NCBI RefSeq assembly: GCF_038397785.1
Contig: NZ_CP151642.1
Coordinates: forward strand, 1,612,001-1,676,000
Direction of reading: 5' to 3'
Source of the DNA: Salinibacterium sp. TMP30
GTDB taxonomy: Bacteria > Actinomycetota > Actinomycetes > Actinomycetales > Microbacteriaceae
Length of the DNA: 64,000 nucleotides
Positions 14,657 to 58,227 of this stretch are shown here, piece by piece. The position numbers were made by a program, and so were the translations under genes. The notes beneath the pieces are model-generated. The model searched no databases and had not been told where the DNA came from. It worked only from the letters and a program-made list of their open reading frames with translations. The number at the start of each line of letters is the position of its first letter. The stretch's first letter is position 1.

Positions 14657-15460
14657 TCAGCTACTGCGTTGCGCGAATGCACTCTCATAGAGGCATACGG
14701 AGGCAGCGGTCGCCAAGTTCATCGACTCCGCATGACCATAAATCGGCACCGAGATGACCCAGTCGGCAAGCGCATAGTGCTCGTCGGTGAGTCCCCGAGC
14801 CTCATTGCCAAACAACCAGGCGGTCGGATGATCGAGCACTCCCTCATTGCGGGCAGCTAACAGATCACCGCCCTTGATGTCTGCAGCGATCACACGAAGG
14901 TCGGCGCCCTTAACTCGTTCAAGAACAGCCTCGAGCTCAACGCCGACGGCGACAGGCAGGTGAAAAAGCGAACCCGTTGTGGCGCGAACAACCTTGGGGT
15001 TATAGAGATCGACGCTTCGACCGGTGAGAATCACACCGTCAGCACCAGCAGCATCCGCCGCACGAATGATTGTTCCCGCGTTACCAGGATCTCGGACCTC
15101 TTCAAGGATCGCGATGAGCTTAGGGCCGCCCGATAGTAAATCCTTTACCGATGTCGGGAACTGTCGGCAGACCGCGATAACACCCTGCGGCGTGACAGTG
15201 TCGGCCATCGTCTCGATCACTTGCTCGGTGACGAACTCGACCTCTATCCCTGCCTCCTCAGCCGCGCGGGCGAGGTCGGTGTGGCGCTCAAGCGCGGTCG
15301 GAGTCGCGTAAAGCTCAACAAGGAGCTCCGGCCGAAAAGTAAGGGCTTCGGAGACTGATTGGGGGCCTTCCAACAGGAAAAGCCCAGTCTCCGACCGGGC
15401 GCTCTTCTTCTCAAGTTTGGCCACTGCTCGTACACGTGGTGAGCGCGGGTTATCAATCAC
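14657..15460 (-). CDS. TrmH/SpoU-family RNA methyltransferase
   Basis: SAM-dependent 2'-O-ribose methyltransferase of the SPOUT class, acting on rRNA or tRNA. I chose the GTG at 15460 (VIDNPRSPRVRAVAKL), 8 bases after AGGG and matching the usual start of the family, over a longer reading to 15505. The 267 residues have an N-terminal RNA-binding substrate domain (EGPQSVSEAL) and a C-terminal knot with DPGNAGTIIRAADAAGADGVIL, WLFGNEARGL and the SAM loop SMNLATAASVCLYE. It lies just after rplT, a placement common in actinobacteria. The target nucleotide cannot be told. Confidence 0.88.
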   Translation of the reverse strand: MIDNPRSPRVRAVAKLEKKSARSETGLFLLEGPQSVSEALTFRPELLVELYATPTALERHTDLARAAEEAGIEVEFVTEQVIETMADTVTPQGVIAVCRQFPTSVKDLLSGGPKLIAILEEVRDPGNAGTIIRAADAAGADGVILTGRSVDLYNPKVVRATTGSLFHLPVAVGVELEAVLERVKGADLRVIAADIKGGDLLAARNEGVLDHPTAWLFGNEARGLTDEHYALADWVISVPIYGHAESMNLATAASVCLYESAFAQRSS

Positions 15461-15499
15461 ATTATTAACCCTAAACTCAGCCGGCACACATACGAGAAA

Positions 15500-15540
15500 C
15501 GGCACGCTGTGCTGACCAAATTGGACAGTACAGCGTGCCG
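15500..15540 (-). terminator. Hairpin terminator after rplT
   Basis: Arms CGGCACGCTGT and ACAGCGTGCCG form an 11-bp perfect stem; the 19-base loop contains CCAAATTGG, itself self-complementary. On the minus strand it is followed by TTTCTCGT, a weak T-rich tail. It sits between rplT and the methyltransferase gene and likely ends or attenuates the infC-rpmI-rplT transcript. Confidence 0.6.
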
Positions 15541-15564
15541 TTGCACGAGGTGTGGTGCGACTAC

Positions 15565-15951
15565 TTATGCAGCCGAACGAGGTGCTGACGTGTCAGCAGG
15601 AAGTGCACCCTTAGCGGTTGCAACCAGCGAGGCGAACGTTGCGGGCTCGGTGACGGCGAGGTCAGCGAGGATACGACGGTCAACCTGCACACCAGCCAAG
15701 TTCAAGCCCTGGATGAGACGGTTATACGTGAGGCCATTTGCCCGCGATGCAGCGTTGATGCGCTGGATCCACAGACGACGGAATTCACCCTTGCGGGCAC
15801 GACGGTCGCGGTACGCGTAGACGAGCGAGTGAGTTACCTGCTCTTTGGCCTTGCGGTAGAGACGCGAACGCTGTCCGCGGTAACCCTTGGCGCGCTCGAG
15901 AATAACCCGACGCTTCTTGTGAGCGTTTACCGCTCTCTTAACTCTTGCCAT
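15565..15951 (-). CDS. rplT: 50S ribosomal protein L20
   Basis: Binds 23S rRNA early in large-subunit assembly. Starting at the ATG at 15951 gives 128 residues beginning [15 protein letters not shown], the canonical L20 opening, with the conserved [12 protein letters not shown] segment. Upstream in-frame sequence is not L20. Third gene of infC-rpmI-rplT. In some bacteria L20 represses its own operon through an mRNA structure; I see no clear L20-binding structure between rpmI and rplT here. Confidence 0.97.
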
Positions 15952-15970
15952 GATGTATTTCCTAAACCCT

Positions 15971-16165
15971 TTACTTACCGAGAAGCTTCTTGATGACCTT
16001 GGCGTCCTGCGGTGCAAGAACCTGATCCTGGTTGAGCGAGCGCTTGCGCTTTCCGCTCTTAACCTCGAGGTTGTGTCGCATACCCGCCTGCTGCTTCATG
16101 ACCTTGCCGCTGCCGGTGATCTTGAAACGCTTCTTGGTGCCTGAGTGCGTCTTCTGCTTAGGCAT
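15971..16165 (-). CDS. rpmI: 50S ribosomal protein L35
   Basis: Small basic protein of the large subunit. The 64 residues from the ATG at 16165 begin [15 protein letters not shown] and include [15 protein letters not shown], typical of L35. The start lies inside the 3' end of infC (8-base overlap), so its translation probably depends on infC translation. It is followed by rplT after 19 bases. Confidence 0.97.
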
Positions 16166-46760: not shown

Positions 46761-48122
46761 CTAACTCTGGGCAACGCTGCCGAGAGTAAGTCCGGAGAAC
46801 ATCTCTTCAGTTACCGCACCCACTGCCGCAATCGACAGGGGGCGTGAGGAGAGTTCGTGAGCAAGTTCTTGGATGCCGTCGGCCGTGACCGCTGAGATCC
46901 GTGCGATCGATGTGTCGAGGTCGACAAACTCGCCAAGCGTGAGTTCGCTGCGACCGAGTCGCGACATGCGCGAATCGGAGTCTTCGAGCGCAAGAGCTGA
47001 GGCCCCTCGCAGTTGCCCGATCGCCCGGCTGATTTCTTCGTCCGTGACAGCAGCATGGCCGAGTTTCGTGAACTCTTCGAGCATGAGTTCGGCAACCTGC
47101 GCAGACTTCGCGGGCGAGCATCCGGCATAAATGCCAAAGATTCCTGCATCGGAGTAGCTGGGCGCGAAGGAGTACACCGAGTAGGCCAGCCCACGCTTTT
47201 CGCGCACTTCTTGAAACAGCCGCGATGACATACCACTGCCCAAGATCGAGTTGAGCACGGTAAGGGTTGCGCGACGCTCATCGGTAGCGGAAAGCCCTTC
47301 GACGCCAGCAATGATATTCGCCTGCTCGATGGGTCGAGGAGTCACCTGAAGTCGCTGACCCGGCTCGGAGGCTTGCGCTGCAGCGCTATCTCGACGCGCA
47401 ACCGGTGTCGCCTCATGCGACAGGTCCCATCCCGCAGCGATAAGACACGAGGAAACTAAGGCGACGACCATATTGTGGTCGACAGCGCCAGCCACTGTAA
47501 TCACGAGATCTTGAGGCCGGTAGTTTCCACGGTAGTGCTTCACTACGGAATCTCGCGAAATTGCGTTGATCGTTTCAGGGCTACCGCCAATCGGCCGGCC
47601 AAGCGGATGCTCGCCAAAGACGGCCTCGAAGAAGCGCTCACTCGCGACATCGGTCGGGTCGTCATCGGCCATGGCGAGTTCTTCGAGAATCACTCCACGC
47701 TCATTCGCGAACTCTGTGGCATCGATCAGGCTCGAGGCGAGCATGTCGCCGATCACTTCGATCGCCATGGGCAGGTCGATGTCTTGCACCTTGGCGTAAT
47801 AGCAGGTGTATTCCTTGGCGGTCATCGCGTTGTGCTCGCCACCCACCGCATCGAAACTGACCGCGATGTCTAGCGCAGTGCGCGACGGAGTTCCCTTGAA
47901 CAGCAGGTGCTCCAAGAAATGAGTGGCACCGAAGGTTCCTGGCAGCTCGTCTCGCGAGCCAGCCGCAACCCAGTAGCCCACCGTTGCGCTGCGCGCACCC
48001 GGAACTTGTTCGCTAAGAATGCGCACACCGCTCGGCAAAACGGTTCTGCGAACGAGACTGTCGCCGGTTGCGGTGAACGACAGTTCGGGAAGGTCAAGAG
48101 GAAGATTCACTGCGTCGATCAT
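46761..48122 (-). CDS. M16-family zinc metallopeptidase
   Basis: 453-residue processing-protease-like enzyme. The inverted zinc motif HxxEH is in THFLEHLLFKG (about H68, E71, H72), with the third ligand Glu in GVILEELAMADDD. The C-terminal R/Y pair region (RGLAYSVYSF) is also present, so the two halves form a complete M16 subunit. In many actinobacteria it directly follows pnp; here about 3.3 kb of other genes separate them. Confidence 0.92.
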   Translation of the reverse strand: MIDAVNLPLDLPELSFTATGDSLVRRTVLPSGVRILSEQVPGARSATVGYWVAAGSRDELPGTFGATHFLEHLLFKGTPSRTALDIAVSFDAVGGEHNAMTAKEYTCYYAKVQDIDLPMAIEVIGDMLASSLIDATEFANERGVILEELAMADDDPTDVASERFFEAVFGEHPLGRPIGGSPETINAISRDSVVKHYRGNYRPQDLVITVAGAVDHNMVVALVSSCLIAAGWDLSHEATPVARRDSAAAQASEPGQRLQVTPRPIEQANIIAGVEGLSATDERRATLTVLNSILGSGMSSRLFQEVREKRGLAYSVYSFAPSYSDAGIFGIYAGCSPAKSAQVAELMLEEFTKLGHAAVTDEEISRAIGQLRGASALALEDSDSRMSRLGRSELTLGEFVDLDTSIARISAVTADGIQELAHELSSRPLSIAAVGAVTEEMFSGLTLGSVAQS

Positions 48123-48207: not shown

Positions 48208-48241
48208 AAGAGGACAGACAGACTTGTCTGTATGTCCTCTT
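48208..48241. promoter_or_regulatory. 34-bp near-perfect palindrome, probable TetR operator
   Basis: 15 of 17 symmetric pairs match; the core reads ACAGAC-TT-GTCTGT flanked by AGGACA and TGTCCT. Size and symmetry fit two TetR dimers on one operator. It is 190 bases before tetR. Confidence 0.6.
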
Positions 48242-48431: not shown

Positions 48432-49025
48432 GTGATGGTATTTGAGACACCAGAGACCGCACAGCGCGCTCCGGCCAAGGGCCGCATTCTAGAAACGGCT
48501 AACGAACTTTTCTACCAAAACGGCATCCTGAACGTCGGAGTAGACCGCATCATTGCGCAGTCGAGCGTGACGAAGGCAACCTTCTACAAGCACTACCGCT
48601 CAAAAGACAACTTGATTATTGAGTACGTCAAGAGCCGCAGAGCAGCAGTAGAGACCCACGTGCGATCAGTCATCGAAGGCGCAGCTTCCCCTCACGACGC
48701 CGTCCTCGGGCTGCTCGAGGGCGTCGCCGCCGAGCTCACGAAGCACGATTTTCGTGGATGCCCATTCCTCAATGTTGTCGCCGAATTTCCCGACCCCAAG
48801 CATCCCGTGCGTGTATTGATTGCCGAACACCGCGATTGGTACAACGAAGCCCTCTACGAATTGATGCGCAGCGCACATCATCCTTTCCCTGGTGACGCCG
48901 CCGACGAACTCATGCTCGCCAAAGATGGCGCCCTCGCGGGAGGCTACGCCGGTGACACGATTGCTGCGGGAGCGGCAATGGCTAGAGTAGTCAAGCGCGT
49001 GCTCGCCGAATCCGTCAGCGCTTAG
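48432..49025 (+). CDS. TetR-family transcription regulator
   Basis: 197 residues; GTG 48432 lies 6 bases after GGAG, and ATG 48435 is the alternative. The N-terminal HTH is KGRILETANELFYQNGILNVGVDRII...SSVTKATFYKHYRSKDNLI (outlined), a standard TetR DNA-binding domain. The ligand domain has the segment FRGCPFLNVVAEFPDPKHPVRV, shared with LmrA/YxaF-type members. Upstream palindromes probably include its operator. Target genes are unknown; the divergent M16 gene and the aldo/keto reductase are nearest. Confidence 0.88.
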   Translation: MMVFETPETAQRAPAKGRILETANELFYQNGILNVGVDRIIAQSSVTKATFYKHYRSKDNLIIEYVKSRRAAVETHVRSVIEGAASPHDAVLGLLEGVAAELTKHDFRGCPFLNVVAEFPDPKHPVRVLIAEHRDWYNEALYELMRSAHHPFPGDAADELMLAKDGALAGGYAGDTIAAGAAMARVVKRVLAESVSA

Positions 49026-54218: not shown

Positions 54219-55334
54219 CTAGACCGCTCGGGCATCGGCGGCCGCGAGGGCGGCAAGAGCTGCGTCACGCTTGGAGACGAGAGATGCGTGGGTGGGAGCA
54301 TCCGGAACTTCGGCCGGTCTGTTGGTAGCGAACTCCTTGCGGAGCACGGGCACCACTTCTTCGCCCAGAAGGTCGAGCTGCTCGAGCACGGTCTTGAGCG
54401 GCAGTCCGGCGTGATCCATGAGGAAAAGTTGGCGCTGGTAGTCACCGAAGTGTTCACGCATTCCTGCGTACTTATCGATGACCTCTTGCGGGCTACCAAC
54501 CGCGAGTGGGGTCTGGTCAGTGAAGTCTTCCATCGACGGGCCGTGACCGTAGACGGGGGCGTTGTCGAAGTAGGGTCGGAACTCGGCCTTCGCTGCCTGC
54601 GAGTTGCTGCGCATGAATGCTTGGCCACCGAGCCCCACAATGGCCTGTGCTGCCGTGCCGTGACCGTAGTGCTCGAAGCGCTGACGGTAGTAGCTGACGA
54701 GACGCATGTAGTGCTCTTTGGGCCAGAAAATGTTGTTCGCGAAGAAGCCATCACCGTAAAAGGCTGCCTGTTCAGCGATCTCTGGGCTGCGGATCGAACC
54801 GTGCCACACGAAGGGAGGCACGCCATCCAGCGGGCGCGGCGTCGACTGGAAACCCTGAAGGGGCGTGCGGAACTTGCCCTCCCAGTTCACAAACTCTTCA
54901 CGCCACAACTTGTGCAGCAGCGAGTAATTTTCGATTGCAAGCGGGATGCCGTCACGAATGTCTTTGCCGAACCACGGGTACACCGGCCCGGTGTTGCCTC
55001 GACCCATCATGAGGTCGGCCCGACCATCAGACAGATGCTGAAGCATTGCGTAGTCTTCAGCAATCTTCACAGGATCGTTGGTGGTGATGAGCGTCGTGCT
55101 TGTAGAGAGTATGAGCCTCTCGGTTTGTGCAGCAATATAGGCGAGGGTCGTCGTGGGGCTGGAGGAGACGAACGGCGGGTTGTGGTGCTCGCCAAGGGCG
55201 AACACATCGAGTCCGACTTCTTCCGCCTTTTTGGCAATCGTGACGATGGCATTGATGCGCTCACCTTCGGTGGGGGTGCTGCCATCGGTGGGGTCAGTGG
55301 TGACGTCGCTAACGGTGAAAATTCCGAACTGCAT
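54219..55334 (-). CDS. LLM-class flavin-dependent oxidoreductase
   Basis: Bacterial-luciferase-like monooxygenase, 371 residues, TIM barrel. MQFGIFTVSD at the start, EEVGLDVFALGEHHNPPF, and LSDGRADLMMGRGNTGPVYPWFG are class motifs; flavin is FMN or F420 by family. The substrate (alkanal, sulfonate, nitrilotriacetate or other) cannot be read. It is divergent from a PucR/CdaR-like regulator across a perfect 32-bp palindrome, so its expression is probably controlled by that protein. Confidence 0.9.
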   Translation of the reverse strand: MQFGIFTVSDVTTDPTDGSTPTEGERINAIVTIAKKAEEVGLDVFALGEHHNPPFVSSSPTTTLAYIAAQTERLILSTSTTLITTNDPVKIAEDYAMLQHLSDGRADLMMGRGNTGPVYPWFGKDIRDGIPLAIENYSLLHKLWREEFVNWEGKFRTPLQGFQSTPRPLDGVPPFVWHGSIRSPEIAEQAAFYGDGFFANNIFWPKEHYMRLVSYYRQRFEHYGHGTAAQAIVGLGGQAFMRSNSQAAKAEFRPYFDNAPVYGHGPSMEDFTDQTPLAVGSPQEVIDKYAGMREHFGDYQRQLFLMDHAGLPLKTVLEQLDLLGEEVVPVLRKEFATNRPAEVPDAPTHASLVSKRDAALAALAAADARAV

Positions 55335-55409
55335 TAGTGCTCCGGTCTCCCAAAATGTGGCTGGATCAATTAGTTATCTCGTTCAACCAGACTGTTCCCC
55401 GATAATTCC

Positions 55410-55441
55410 GCCCCCATACCGCCAATTGGCGGTATGGGGGC
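55410..55441. promoter_or_regulatory. Perfect 32-bp palindrome between LLM gene and regulator
   Basis: Half-site GCCCCCATACCGCCAA followed by its exact reverse complement, no mismatch. It is 76 bases from the LLM start and 48 bases from the regulator start. TTGGCG inside each half could serve as a -35. Likely the operator of the divergent regulator. Confidence 0.85.
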
Positions 55442-55488
55442 TGTGAGCCGTACAGTGGTGCCGCACCCACGAAAGGTGGCAGCCACTT

Positions 55489-56163
55489 ATGCCCAGAGAC
55501 ATCGCGTCACTCGCCAACCCTGGCAGCGACAGCGTTGTGCAGTCGCTACTGGATGCTGCACGAACTTCTGCTGAGCGTCAGACTGCTACACAATCCCTCG
55601 GGCTCACTCCCAGCACCCGTTACCGAGTGATTGCGCAGCCCGCGAACTCCGCTGGCCCCGTGCACATCCCGTCGGCAGTGATGTCCACGGTTGCGGGGCC
55701 TGTACTCGCCGAGGTCGTGCTTAATACGGATGCCGTGGCGGCACCGCGAGCGGGAGTCGGAATCGCTGCCGCACCCGCCGAACTTGTGCGTTCTTGGCAA
55801 TCCGCACTCATCGCCCTGCGGTTGACTTCCGATAGTGAACCCGTGTTGCACGCAGATGACCTGGGTTCGCTTTTGCTGCTTGCGGAAATCAGCCCAGCGG
55901 GCGCCCCCGAAAACTGCGACCTGCAGGCGGTTGGGGTTGTCATTCGAGAATCACCGCGCATCATTGCCATGCTCGACACTCTTGCCGCGAGCGATAGTCT
56001 GCGCGCCGCAGCGACCACACTTGGATTTCACCACTCCACCGTGCAGTCACGGGCAGAAGAACTGAGCGGCAAGCTCGGTTTCGATGTGCGCACGACTCGC
56101 GGCCGCACGAGGCTCTCCGTCGCGCTCGCCCTGTACCGGCTCGAGACGGTGCGCTTCGACTGA
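55489..56163 (+). CDS. PucR/CdaR-like transcription regulator
   Basis: 224 residues. The C-terminal 55 residues (SLRAAATTLGFHHSTVQSRAEELSGKLGFDV, outlined) form a PucR-type HTH. Before it a degenerate GGDEF-like CdaR segment is visible (GVGIAAAPAELVRSWQSALIALRL and HADDLGSLLLLAEI). The usual N-terminal PucR sensor domain is absent or very short. Divergent to the LLM gene over a perfect palindrome. Effector unknown; this type is often an activator. Confidence 0.75.
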   Translation: MPRDIASLANPGSDSVVQSLLDAARTSAERQTATQSLGLTPSTRYRVIAQPANSAGPVHIPSAVMSTVAGPVLAEVVLNTDAVAAPRAGVGIAAAPAELVRSWQSALIALRLTSDSEPVLHADDLGSLLLLAEISPAGAPENCDLQAVGVVIRESPRIIAMLDTLAASDSLRAAATTLGFHHSTVQSRAEELSGKLGFDVRTTRGRTRLSVALALYRLETVRFD

Positions 56164-56199: not shown

Positions 56200-57051
56200 C
56201 TAGGCCTCGTTAGAGAGCTGACCACGCACGATTGAGTCGCCCGAGTGCGCAGGGTCGCCGTCGAACTGTTCTTCGGAGATGTCGACAAGATCGTAGCTAT
56301 CGATGTCGAGGCCATCGGGCACCGTGAACTGACCTGACGTGCCCTCGACGATTCCGAGGCTCACGAGAGCCGTGGCATCCGAGGTAATGAGCCACACTTC
56401 GCGGTAGCCGCCAGCAGTCGCGGGTGCATCGAAGTTCACATCAATCACTCGCGTACCGTCTGGCCGTCGCTCGAGCCTGGCCTCACCCGTTGAATCCGCC
56501 CAATTAGGGAAAGCATCGAGCGTTGCACTCGCAAGAATCGTCGGCTGATCGGCGGGCTGGAACGTTAGCCAGATCGCTGATCCTGCTGCCGCAACCAGCG
56601 CGAGCGACGCTGCCGCAGCAAGCGCAGCAACCCATGGACGCCGGCGTTTGTCGAGCGAATGCACAGTAGCGCCCTCGGTGACGGGATTGGCCTCAGCTGG
56701 TGGCGCCTCAGCTGATTCACAATCAGGCTCACTCAACGCACGCTCAGCGCGCTTCTCAGCTAATACATCCACGCGCTCGTCGACAACTGTTGAAGTGGAT
56801 AGTTTTTGCGGCAGCGTCGGCGCTTCGGGGCTCAGAGAAAGCTCGTCACTGATTCGCTCCCAAACTCGCGATGGCGGATCGAGCAGCTCGCCGGCATCAA
56901 ACGTCGCGCGACCGACCACCGCGGCGCGAGACAATACTTCGATTTCACGACGGCATTGCTCACATTCGCTGATGTGTTCGCTGTCTACGGGGAGGGCGAC
57001 CTGCTCGCCAAGAGCAAGCAGCGCAAGGACCTCAGGATCAACGTGTCGCAT
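56200..57051 (-). CDS. RskA-type anti-sigma factor
   Basis: 283 residues. N-terminal zinc-binding anti-sigma motif HISECEQC (H26, C30, C33), a disordered middle, one membrane helix (about 138-162) and a C-terminal RskA-like extracellular domain (WADSTGEARLERRPDG..., REVWLITSDATALVSLGIV). GGAG lies 4 bases before the ATG, inside the sigma gene (14-base overlap). It should hold the ECF sigma at the membrane until signal-driven proteolysis. Confidence 0.9.
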   Translation of the reverse strand: MRHVDPEVLALLALGEQVALPVDSEHISECEQCRREIEVLSRAAVVGRATFDAGELLDPPSRVWERISDELSLSPEAPTLPQKLSTSTVVDERVDVLAEKRAERALSEPDCESAEAPPAEANPVTEGATVHSLDKRRRPWVAALAAAASLALVAAAGSAIWLTFQPADQPTILASATLDAFPNWADSTGEARLERRPDGTRVIDVNFDAPATAGGYREVWLITSDATALVSLGIVEGTSGQFTVPDGLDIDSYDLVDISEEQFDGDPAHSGDSIVRGQLSNEA

Positions 57052-57598
57052 AGGTCTCCTCCAATCGTGTTCGCATCCGTTGCAAACTGCGCCGGATATG
57101 GCTCTTGACCGTGCCCAAAGGTAGTTCGAGGCGGTCGGCTATTTGGTTGTGTGTGAGATCGTCGAAGAATGCCAATCGCATTATTGCTTGAGCATCCGGC
57201 TCAAGCCTGGCGATTTCGTCGGCCACCATCAGCGTGTCAGCCAAATCGAAGTCTTGCACAATTGGCTCGCCCCTCGACGTTGTCGCGGCCAGCTCTTCTT
57301 GAAGGCGACGCACTCGCGCGCGGGCTTCGTGCGTGTCGGCGATCTTGTTCTTAGTGATCCCCACAAGCCAGGCGGAGAGGGTTGAGCGTTCCGGCTTGTA
57401 GCCTGCTCGACCGGTCCAGGCCGAAACGAAAACTTTTTGGGTGACGTCTTCGGCATCTCCACGGTCGCCGAGAGATCGAACGGCGAGAGTGAACACAAGT
57501 GATGACCAGCGACGGTAAATGTCTGCGAGCGCCGATTCCTCACCCGCAACGAAGGCGAGCGTCATGCGCGCTTCGTTAGCGAGGTCCTTGTCGGTCAT
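57038..57598 (-). CDS. ECF-type RNA polymerase sigma factor (SigK-like)
   Basis: 186 residues from ATG 57598 (GGAG four bases upstream); GTG 57622, which overlaps the sortase stop by 4 bases, is an alternative. Region 2 shows RSLGDRGDAEDVTQKVFVSAW and region 4 LTHNQIADRLELPLGTVKSHIRRSLQRMR (outlined), so both DNA-contacting parts are complete. Paired with an RskA-type anti-sigma. Its targets probably include the DUF4397/sortase genes directly upstream. Confidence 0.92.
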   Translation of the reverse strand: MTDKDLANEARMTLAFVAGEESALADIYRRWSSLVFTLAVRSLGDRGDAEDVTQKVFVSAWTGRAGYKPERSTLSAWLVGITKNKIADTHEARARVRRLQEELAATTSRGEPIVQDFDLADTLMVADEIARLEPDAQAIMRLAFFDDLTHNQIADRLELPLGTVKSHIRRSLQRMRTRLEETYATR

Positions 57599-57618
57599 GA
57601 TTCTCCGGTTGATGGTTG

Positions 57619-58227
57619 TCACAGTGGATTCGCAATCGCAACAACATTGTCAGAGTAGTTCTGCACATTCTTATCGAACTGTCCACCACAGGTGAGTAAA
57701 ACAATTCGTGGGGCGCCATCTCGATCAAAGACCTGATCGAGCGGAAGTTGCTTCTTTTGGATGTTCTGAACCGACTCTAGGCGATAGCGGTGATCCACGC
57801 CGTCCTCGGTAGTGACAATAATCTCAGCGTCTGCGGGCATCTCTTTGAGATACGCAAACGGGCCCAAGCCTTGGTCAAAAGAATCAACGTGGGCGGTGAT
57901 CACGGTTGACCCGGTTTCGCTACTGGGCGACGGACCATAGCGGTACCAGCCTGCCACCCGGATGTTCTCGGGGATCTGCATGAGACCGTCAGCCTCAACG
58001 CCGACCGGGGTGATCTGGATGTCGATCGAGACCGAGGGAATCTGGATGCGTACCGGGGCGGAAACTTGCTCTACCGGCGCGATTTCACTCGACTGCCGAG
58101 GCACATCGACCACCGCGGTAGGAAGCGGAGTCGGTGCCGGGTCGGGAGCGATGGGTTGAGCTGCTGTAGTTGTGCAACCTGCAAGGAGAAGCGCCATGGC
58201 CGCGAGGGCTAGGATTCTCGCGGCCAT
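57619..58227 (-). CDS. Lipoprotein class F-like sortase
   Basis: 202 residues. Unusually it starts with a lipobox (LLLAGC, Cys18) rather than a plain membrane anchor. The sortase barrel runs from RIQIPSVSIDI to the end, with catalytic His in TAHVDS (about H113) and Cys in LLTCGG (about C180). The catalytic Arg expected near YRDNVV is Ser here (NYSDNVV, about S192). It lies between the DUF4397 gene and the sigma gene, so it may process the DUF4397 protein. Confidence 0.85.
   Translation of the reverse strand: MAARILALAAMALLLAGCTTTAAQPIAPDPAPTPLPTAVVDVPRQSSEIAPVEQVSAPVRIQIPSVSIDIQITPVGVEADGLMQIPENIRVAGWYRYGPSPSSETGSTVITAHVDSFDQGLGPFAYLKEMPADAEIIVTTEDGVDHRYRLESVQNIQKKQLPLDQVFDRDGAPRIVLLTCGGQFDKNVQNYSDNVVAIANPL

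Follow-up and report, generated by a model that had tools for sequence, protein, structure and literature searches.

The window analyzed here, a stretch of 64,000 nucleotides from Salinibacterium sp. TMP30, contains a gene for a CE1758-family FMN-dependent luciferase-like (LLM) monooxygenase (positions 54219 to 55334, minus strand; TIGR04036, 700 bits, cutoff of 479) and, in the opposite orientation, an open reading frame (ORF) for a PucR-type regulator of 224 amino acids (aa) (55489 to 56163, plus strand). The regulator carries the PucR C-terminal helix-turn-helix (HTH) domain PF13556, with the HTH at residues 165 to 214, above the gathering cutoff (E value, 6.8e-7; 29.4 bits, cutoff of 27); its start codon at 55489 is assigned without homology support. 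Directly downstream of the regulator, at 56200 to 57622, lies an ECF-type sigma factor gene paired with an anti-sigma-like gene (both named by eye), and this pair is syntenic in one relative (L031).

Between the LLM and regulator genes, positions 55410 to 55441 form an exact 32-bp palindrome with 16-nucleotide (nt) arms and no gap, GCCCCCATACCGCCAA followed by TTGGCGGTATGGGGGC. The sequence-only reading had described a mismatch-free 32-bp palindrome between an LLM oxidoreductase gene and a PucR-like gene and had called it exceptional. Its coordinates agree with ours, and the numbers bear it out: zero-gap arms of at least 16 nt are expected by chance 2.5e-5 times per window and 1e-3 times per 2.69-Mb genome, and the second-longest zero-gap arm in a census of the window measures 8 nt. 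The search for the core elsewhere in the genome, which the same reading had proposed, found the 20-bp palindrome core ATACCGCCAATTGGCGGTAT in a single copy, even with three mismatches allowed. Two other inverted repeats were observed in the window: (i) a near-perfect repeat at 48208 to 48241 (AAGAGGACAGACAGAC and GTCTGTATGTCCTCTT; 94%, 2-nt gap), located between divergent ORFs at 46761 to 48122 (minus strand) and 48432 to 49025 (plus strand), which looks like another candidate operator; and (ii) a 27-nt repeat at 15493 to 15547 (85% complementary, 1-nt gap), located at the start of the ORF at 14657 to 15505 (minus strand) and just downstream of the ORF at 15565 to 16017 (minus strand).

The LLM gene is preceded by a SigR/ECF-like promoter motif, GGAAT-N17-GTT (55385 to 55409, minus strand), the -35 element of which (55409 to 55405) adjoins the palindrome without a gap. 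GGAAT-N17/18-GTT is present in all 20 same-genus LLM loci, beginning 67 to 87 bp before the start codon, with a spacer of N17 in the clade of the window and N18 in the remaining loci. The GGAAT and GTT elements are those of the Streptomyces coelicolor SigR/SigH-type consensus, which has an N18 spacer and was scanned for with N16 to N19 (both as quoted in PMC2375139); the sigma dependence of the LLM gene is predicted from the motif. In the 10 same-genus LLM loci without a regulator gene (L047 to L056), a conserved ATGCAAACGCAT-like dyad is located just downstream of GGAAT-N18-GTT, in place of the PucR-type site, and suggests a different repressor acting on the same LLM gene; no good copy of this dyad was found within the window. 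The LLM gene thus seems to be transcribed from a stress-type promoter that is additionally under a clade-specific regulator.

Conservation of the palindrome core

Perfection over the full 32 bp is not kept in relatives, in which conservation is confined to the inner ~16 bp. This core (site A; positions 55418 to 55433, ACCGCCAnnTGGCGGT), with the predicted operator sequence ACCGCCAATTGGCGGT, is the sole conserved part of the palindrome. In an alignment of the LLM-side promoter regions, TACCGCCAnnTGGCGGT is conserved, and in most relatives a second TGGCGGT lies 32 bp downstream of it. A distance of 32 bp corresponds to about three helical turns. At the position of this second half-site in the window (site B; 55459 to 55465, plus strand), as placed by the spacing in relatives, the sequence is TGCCGCA, a degenerate match of four out of seven, although site A is intact in the same genome. 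Candidate -10 elements located ~28 to 30 bp beyond site B suggest that it is close to the -35 element of the promoter of an esterase gene that is present in relatives.

Among same-genus LLM loci, the core was identified in all 10 that encode the regulator (one of them being the window locus) and in none of the 10 that do not; these counts do not represent independent events, because presence and absence track two clades among the LLM loci. In the nine other same-genus genomes with the core, it is located beside the orthologous LLM gene, which is followed by a gene for a hormone-sensitive-lipase-type (HSL-type) esterase and by a PucR-type regulator of 335 aa. Loci of this kind are found in six public records, which bear the name Salinibacterium or marine actinobacterium PHSC20C1.

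Outside the genus, the Salinibacterium-derived core was used as a query against 32 esterase-PucR loci with enough upstream sequence, and it was detected at 11 or more of 14 positions, no more than 200 bp from the esterase start, in 23 of them (dinucleotide shuffles: mean, 0.61; maximum, 4). At a threshold of 12 or more, 14 of the 32 loci had the core (shuffle mean, 0.06). In the nine loci other than the 23, no site was detected at the 11/14 threshold. The offset of the second half-site peaked at +32 (13 of the 23 loci; 0 to 3 at neighboring offsets), and the column consensus was CCGCCA..TGGCGG followed by cGGCGG at +32. The esterase-PucR pair and the core thus recur together in other genera and families. 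Beside these pairs, no LLM gene was found in the stretches examined, apart from one weak match (24% identity). Because the core tracks the pair across genera and families, the site is assigned to the esterase-PucR pair, and the original role of the predicted operator is one within that pair. In one same-genus genome (G025), the core occurs twice, with one copy beside the LLM gene and the other, which has a +32 partner, beside the esterase gene; we read this layout as a putative operator that has naturally been duplicated or split. In this locus (L098), a PPK2-like gene (named by eye; about 1413 to 2312) is located between the LLM and esterase genes, with the core on either side. PucR-type control of the LLM gene is possible but unproven, as judged from the site abutting the LLM promoter and from the core copy kept beside the LLM gene in G025 despite the inserted gene.

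Phylogenetic footprinting and the strict co-occurrence make it very probable that the palindrome core serves the PucR-type regulator as an operator. The proposal of a dedicated PucR operator made in the sequence-only reading is thereby well supported. That reading had taken the whole 32 bp as the unit and had tied its conservation to the gene pair; the palindrome is real and its core is kept with the regulator, but the conserved site was overstated, since only the inner ~16 bp are shared with relatives. It also missed the ancestral target, the esterase gene, which is deleted in this genome. A genome-wide regulon was ruled out: this genome holds the site only once, and of the further exact core matches examined in the genus, most are located inside ORFs.

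Perfect outer arms are unique to this genome, in which they pair at nine of nine positions, compared with one to five of nine in relatives. While the left arm still looks like that of relatives, a near-universal GGTTA is gone from the right arm, which now mirrors the left one. Template-switch correction of a quasipalindrome would be expected to leave such a pattern, and homogenization of imperfect repeats is an established type of mutation (PMC7202029, PMC8604942). Alternatively, the loss of site B may have been followed by selection for a stronger single site.

The shortened regulator and the loss of the esterase gene

The esterase found between the LLM and regulator genes of relatives is of the Abhydrolase_3/HSL type; one such protein matches PF07859 above the cutoff (E value, 6e-54), and the esterase scores under every NCBIfam equivalog cutoff. 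No orthologous esterase was found elsewhere in the genome of the window (99.97% complete, one contig), the best match there having 28% identity over part of the protein. Regulator codon 128 lies ~105 bp from the operator core in the window versus 1,558 to 1,572 bp in relatives. The net loss of ~1.46 kb, known from this single genome, covers the esterase gene and regulator residues 1 to ~125, and the deletion junction lies within 55442 to 55536 (plus strand).

This loss accounts for the missing N-terminal part of the regulator, which aligns with residues ~126 to 335 of its 335-aa relatives. Both within the genus and in the majority of other genera, homologues are full length, so the short protein is a derived form, and a naturally short, sensorless class of regulators was ruled out. 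The absence of the usual N-terminal sensor, pointed out in the sequence-only reading, is therefore true of this protein as a loss of its first ~125 residues in this genome and not as a property of its type. In the full-length relatives, PF13556 is likewise present, a Pfam search of the N-terminal region matched no domain, and the GGDEF-like middle domain PF17853 scored below the cutoff (E values, 0.056 and 0.11). Such a middle domain is found in many, not all, PucR-type members. With a mean pLDDT of 44, a structure model of the full-length protein was too poor for judging this domain.

The frame of the shortened regulator is open across 224 codons. In the HTH region, the window protein has three unique changes in 73 invariant sites and a dN/dS of 0.051 versus 0.040 among relatives; in the middle region, it has 10 unique changes in 71 invariant sites (0 to 5 in relatives) and a dN/dS of 0.157 versus 0.107, all of these ratios being rough because synonymous sites are near saturation. 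The DNA-binding part is thus about as constrained as in relatives, suggesting that the shortened regulator probably still binds, and the faster change of the middle region would also fit early decay. The evidence leans toward a working regulator without settling the matter. A weak candidate promoter for the shortened gene, noticed by eye, consists of TTGGCG (55426 to 55431, within the palindrome), a spacer of 19 nt, and TACAGT (55451 to 55456) on the plus strand; it would place the gene under the operator, with the -35 element in the right arm, but it was not called by a consensus promoter scan and is given little weight.

Proposed history of the locus and alternatives

We consider it probable that the palindrome was built around a PucR-type operator that originally served the adjacent HSL-type esterase gene, that ~1.46 kb was then lost, and that the shortened regulator keeps its DNA-binding end. 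The ancestral layout would have been an LLM gene reading away from site A, site B 32 bp apart from it, and the esterase and 335-aa regulator genes reading in the other direction, the regulator having an N-terminal domain, a middle domain, and the C-terminal HTH. A regulator dimer would have bound the dyad of site A, additional subunits would have occupied half-site B, adjacent to the esterase -35 element, and by analogy with most characterized PucR-type proteins the regulator would most likely have been an activator; the opposite flank of site A would have abutted the SigR-like LLM promoter. The deletion would have left the operator between the LLM gene and a regulator gene without the N-terminal domain and with the DNA-binding end. 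The shortened protein would probably bind site A, where the LLM gene and its own gene would be the only possible targets. Of this account, the palindrome, the conserved core, the spacing, the gene content, the loss, and the conservation of the HTH are observed, and binding, activation, a function kept after the loss, and the ligand are inferred. A further step, in which the loss of target and N-terminal domain produced a ligand-independent DNA-binding protein directly behind its own, then perfected, operator, controlling its own level and the SigR-type LLM promoter, is rather unlikely.

The perfect arms, the degenerate site B, the excess of unique changes in the middle region, and the restriction of the deletion to one genome are also what a decaying remnant might display, with the regulator as a pseudogene in progress, the operator as a fossil, and the outer arms as a mutational by-product, created when a template switch copied one arm onto the other, rather than a functional gain. 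The open frame, the HTH constraint, and the full integrity of site A, unlike that of site B, speak against this, and we regard it as a possibility that falls short of an even chance. It overlaps with the preferred history of the operator because it concerns only the present state of the copy in the window.

Ownership of the site by the PucR-type protein is predicted from sequence comparison, and the ATGCAAACGCAT-like dyads indicate that LLM promoters do switch regulators; a different regulator, encoded elsewhere, might accordingly bind the site, with the PucR-type gene nearby by coincidence. However, the site accompanies the esterase-PucR pair in different genera and families, including at loci where no LLM gene was found in the vicinity, and its occurrence as a single promoter site in this genome is typical of a local regulator, making this explanation improbable. 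For the strand of the palindrome, a hairpin of high stability is predicted (z-score, -5.7), as expected of an RNA structure or a transcription terminator, but the palindrome is located between divergent gene starts and directly upstream of the LLM -35 element, has no T-run, and was not called as a terminator, and the dyad core, not the long stem, is conserved. The hairpin reading was rejected as the least credible of all.

In known systems, PucR-type regulators bind inverted repeats, and the characterized ones listed in PMC7652997 are activators, except for Bacillus subtilis PucR, which does both. The one close parallel found in literature searches on PucR-type regulators of esterases and on PucR operators is GabR of Corynebacterium glutamicum, and nothing was found on an esterase-PucR pair. 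GabR, the PucR-type activator of the GabR-gabTDP system, is likewise an actinobacterial local regulator; it binds two inverted repeats that lie between genes and immediately precede the -35 element of the controlled gene, both of which are needed for strong binding (PMC7652997). The predicted placement of site B near the esterase -35 element fits this arrangement. It differs in its size (~56 kDa), its GABA gene targets, and its 21-bp repeats of another sequence, whereas the second site here is a half-site 32 bp away, and the window locus has lost both target and N-terminal domain. MabR of Mycobacterium tuberculosis (Rv2242; PMC11617747; PDB 9f80) shares the C-terminal HTH, with a marginal profile match to the C-terminal part (E value, 0.065), but has a globin-like N-terminal domain and other targets. 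The esterase of relatives is of the same type as Rhodococcus heroin esterase and other HSL-family esterases (PDB 1lzk), from which it differs in lying below the equivalog cutoffs and in its absence from this genome.

The locus is an ordinary local regulator-operator pair with an unusual history, in which the target and the N-terminal domain were lost and the operator and the DNA-binding end were kept. To our knowledge, few PucR-type operators are known. The site ACCGCCAnnTGGCGGT, with TGGCGGT at +32 and an esterase partner, offers a regulator-operator pair that can be tested directly in several families within a single actinobacterial order, and the copy in the window, without target and N-terminal domain, amounts to a natural deletion experiment on the role of that domain.
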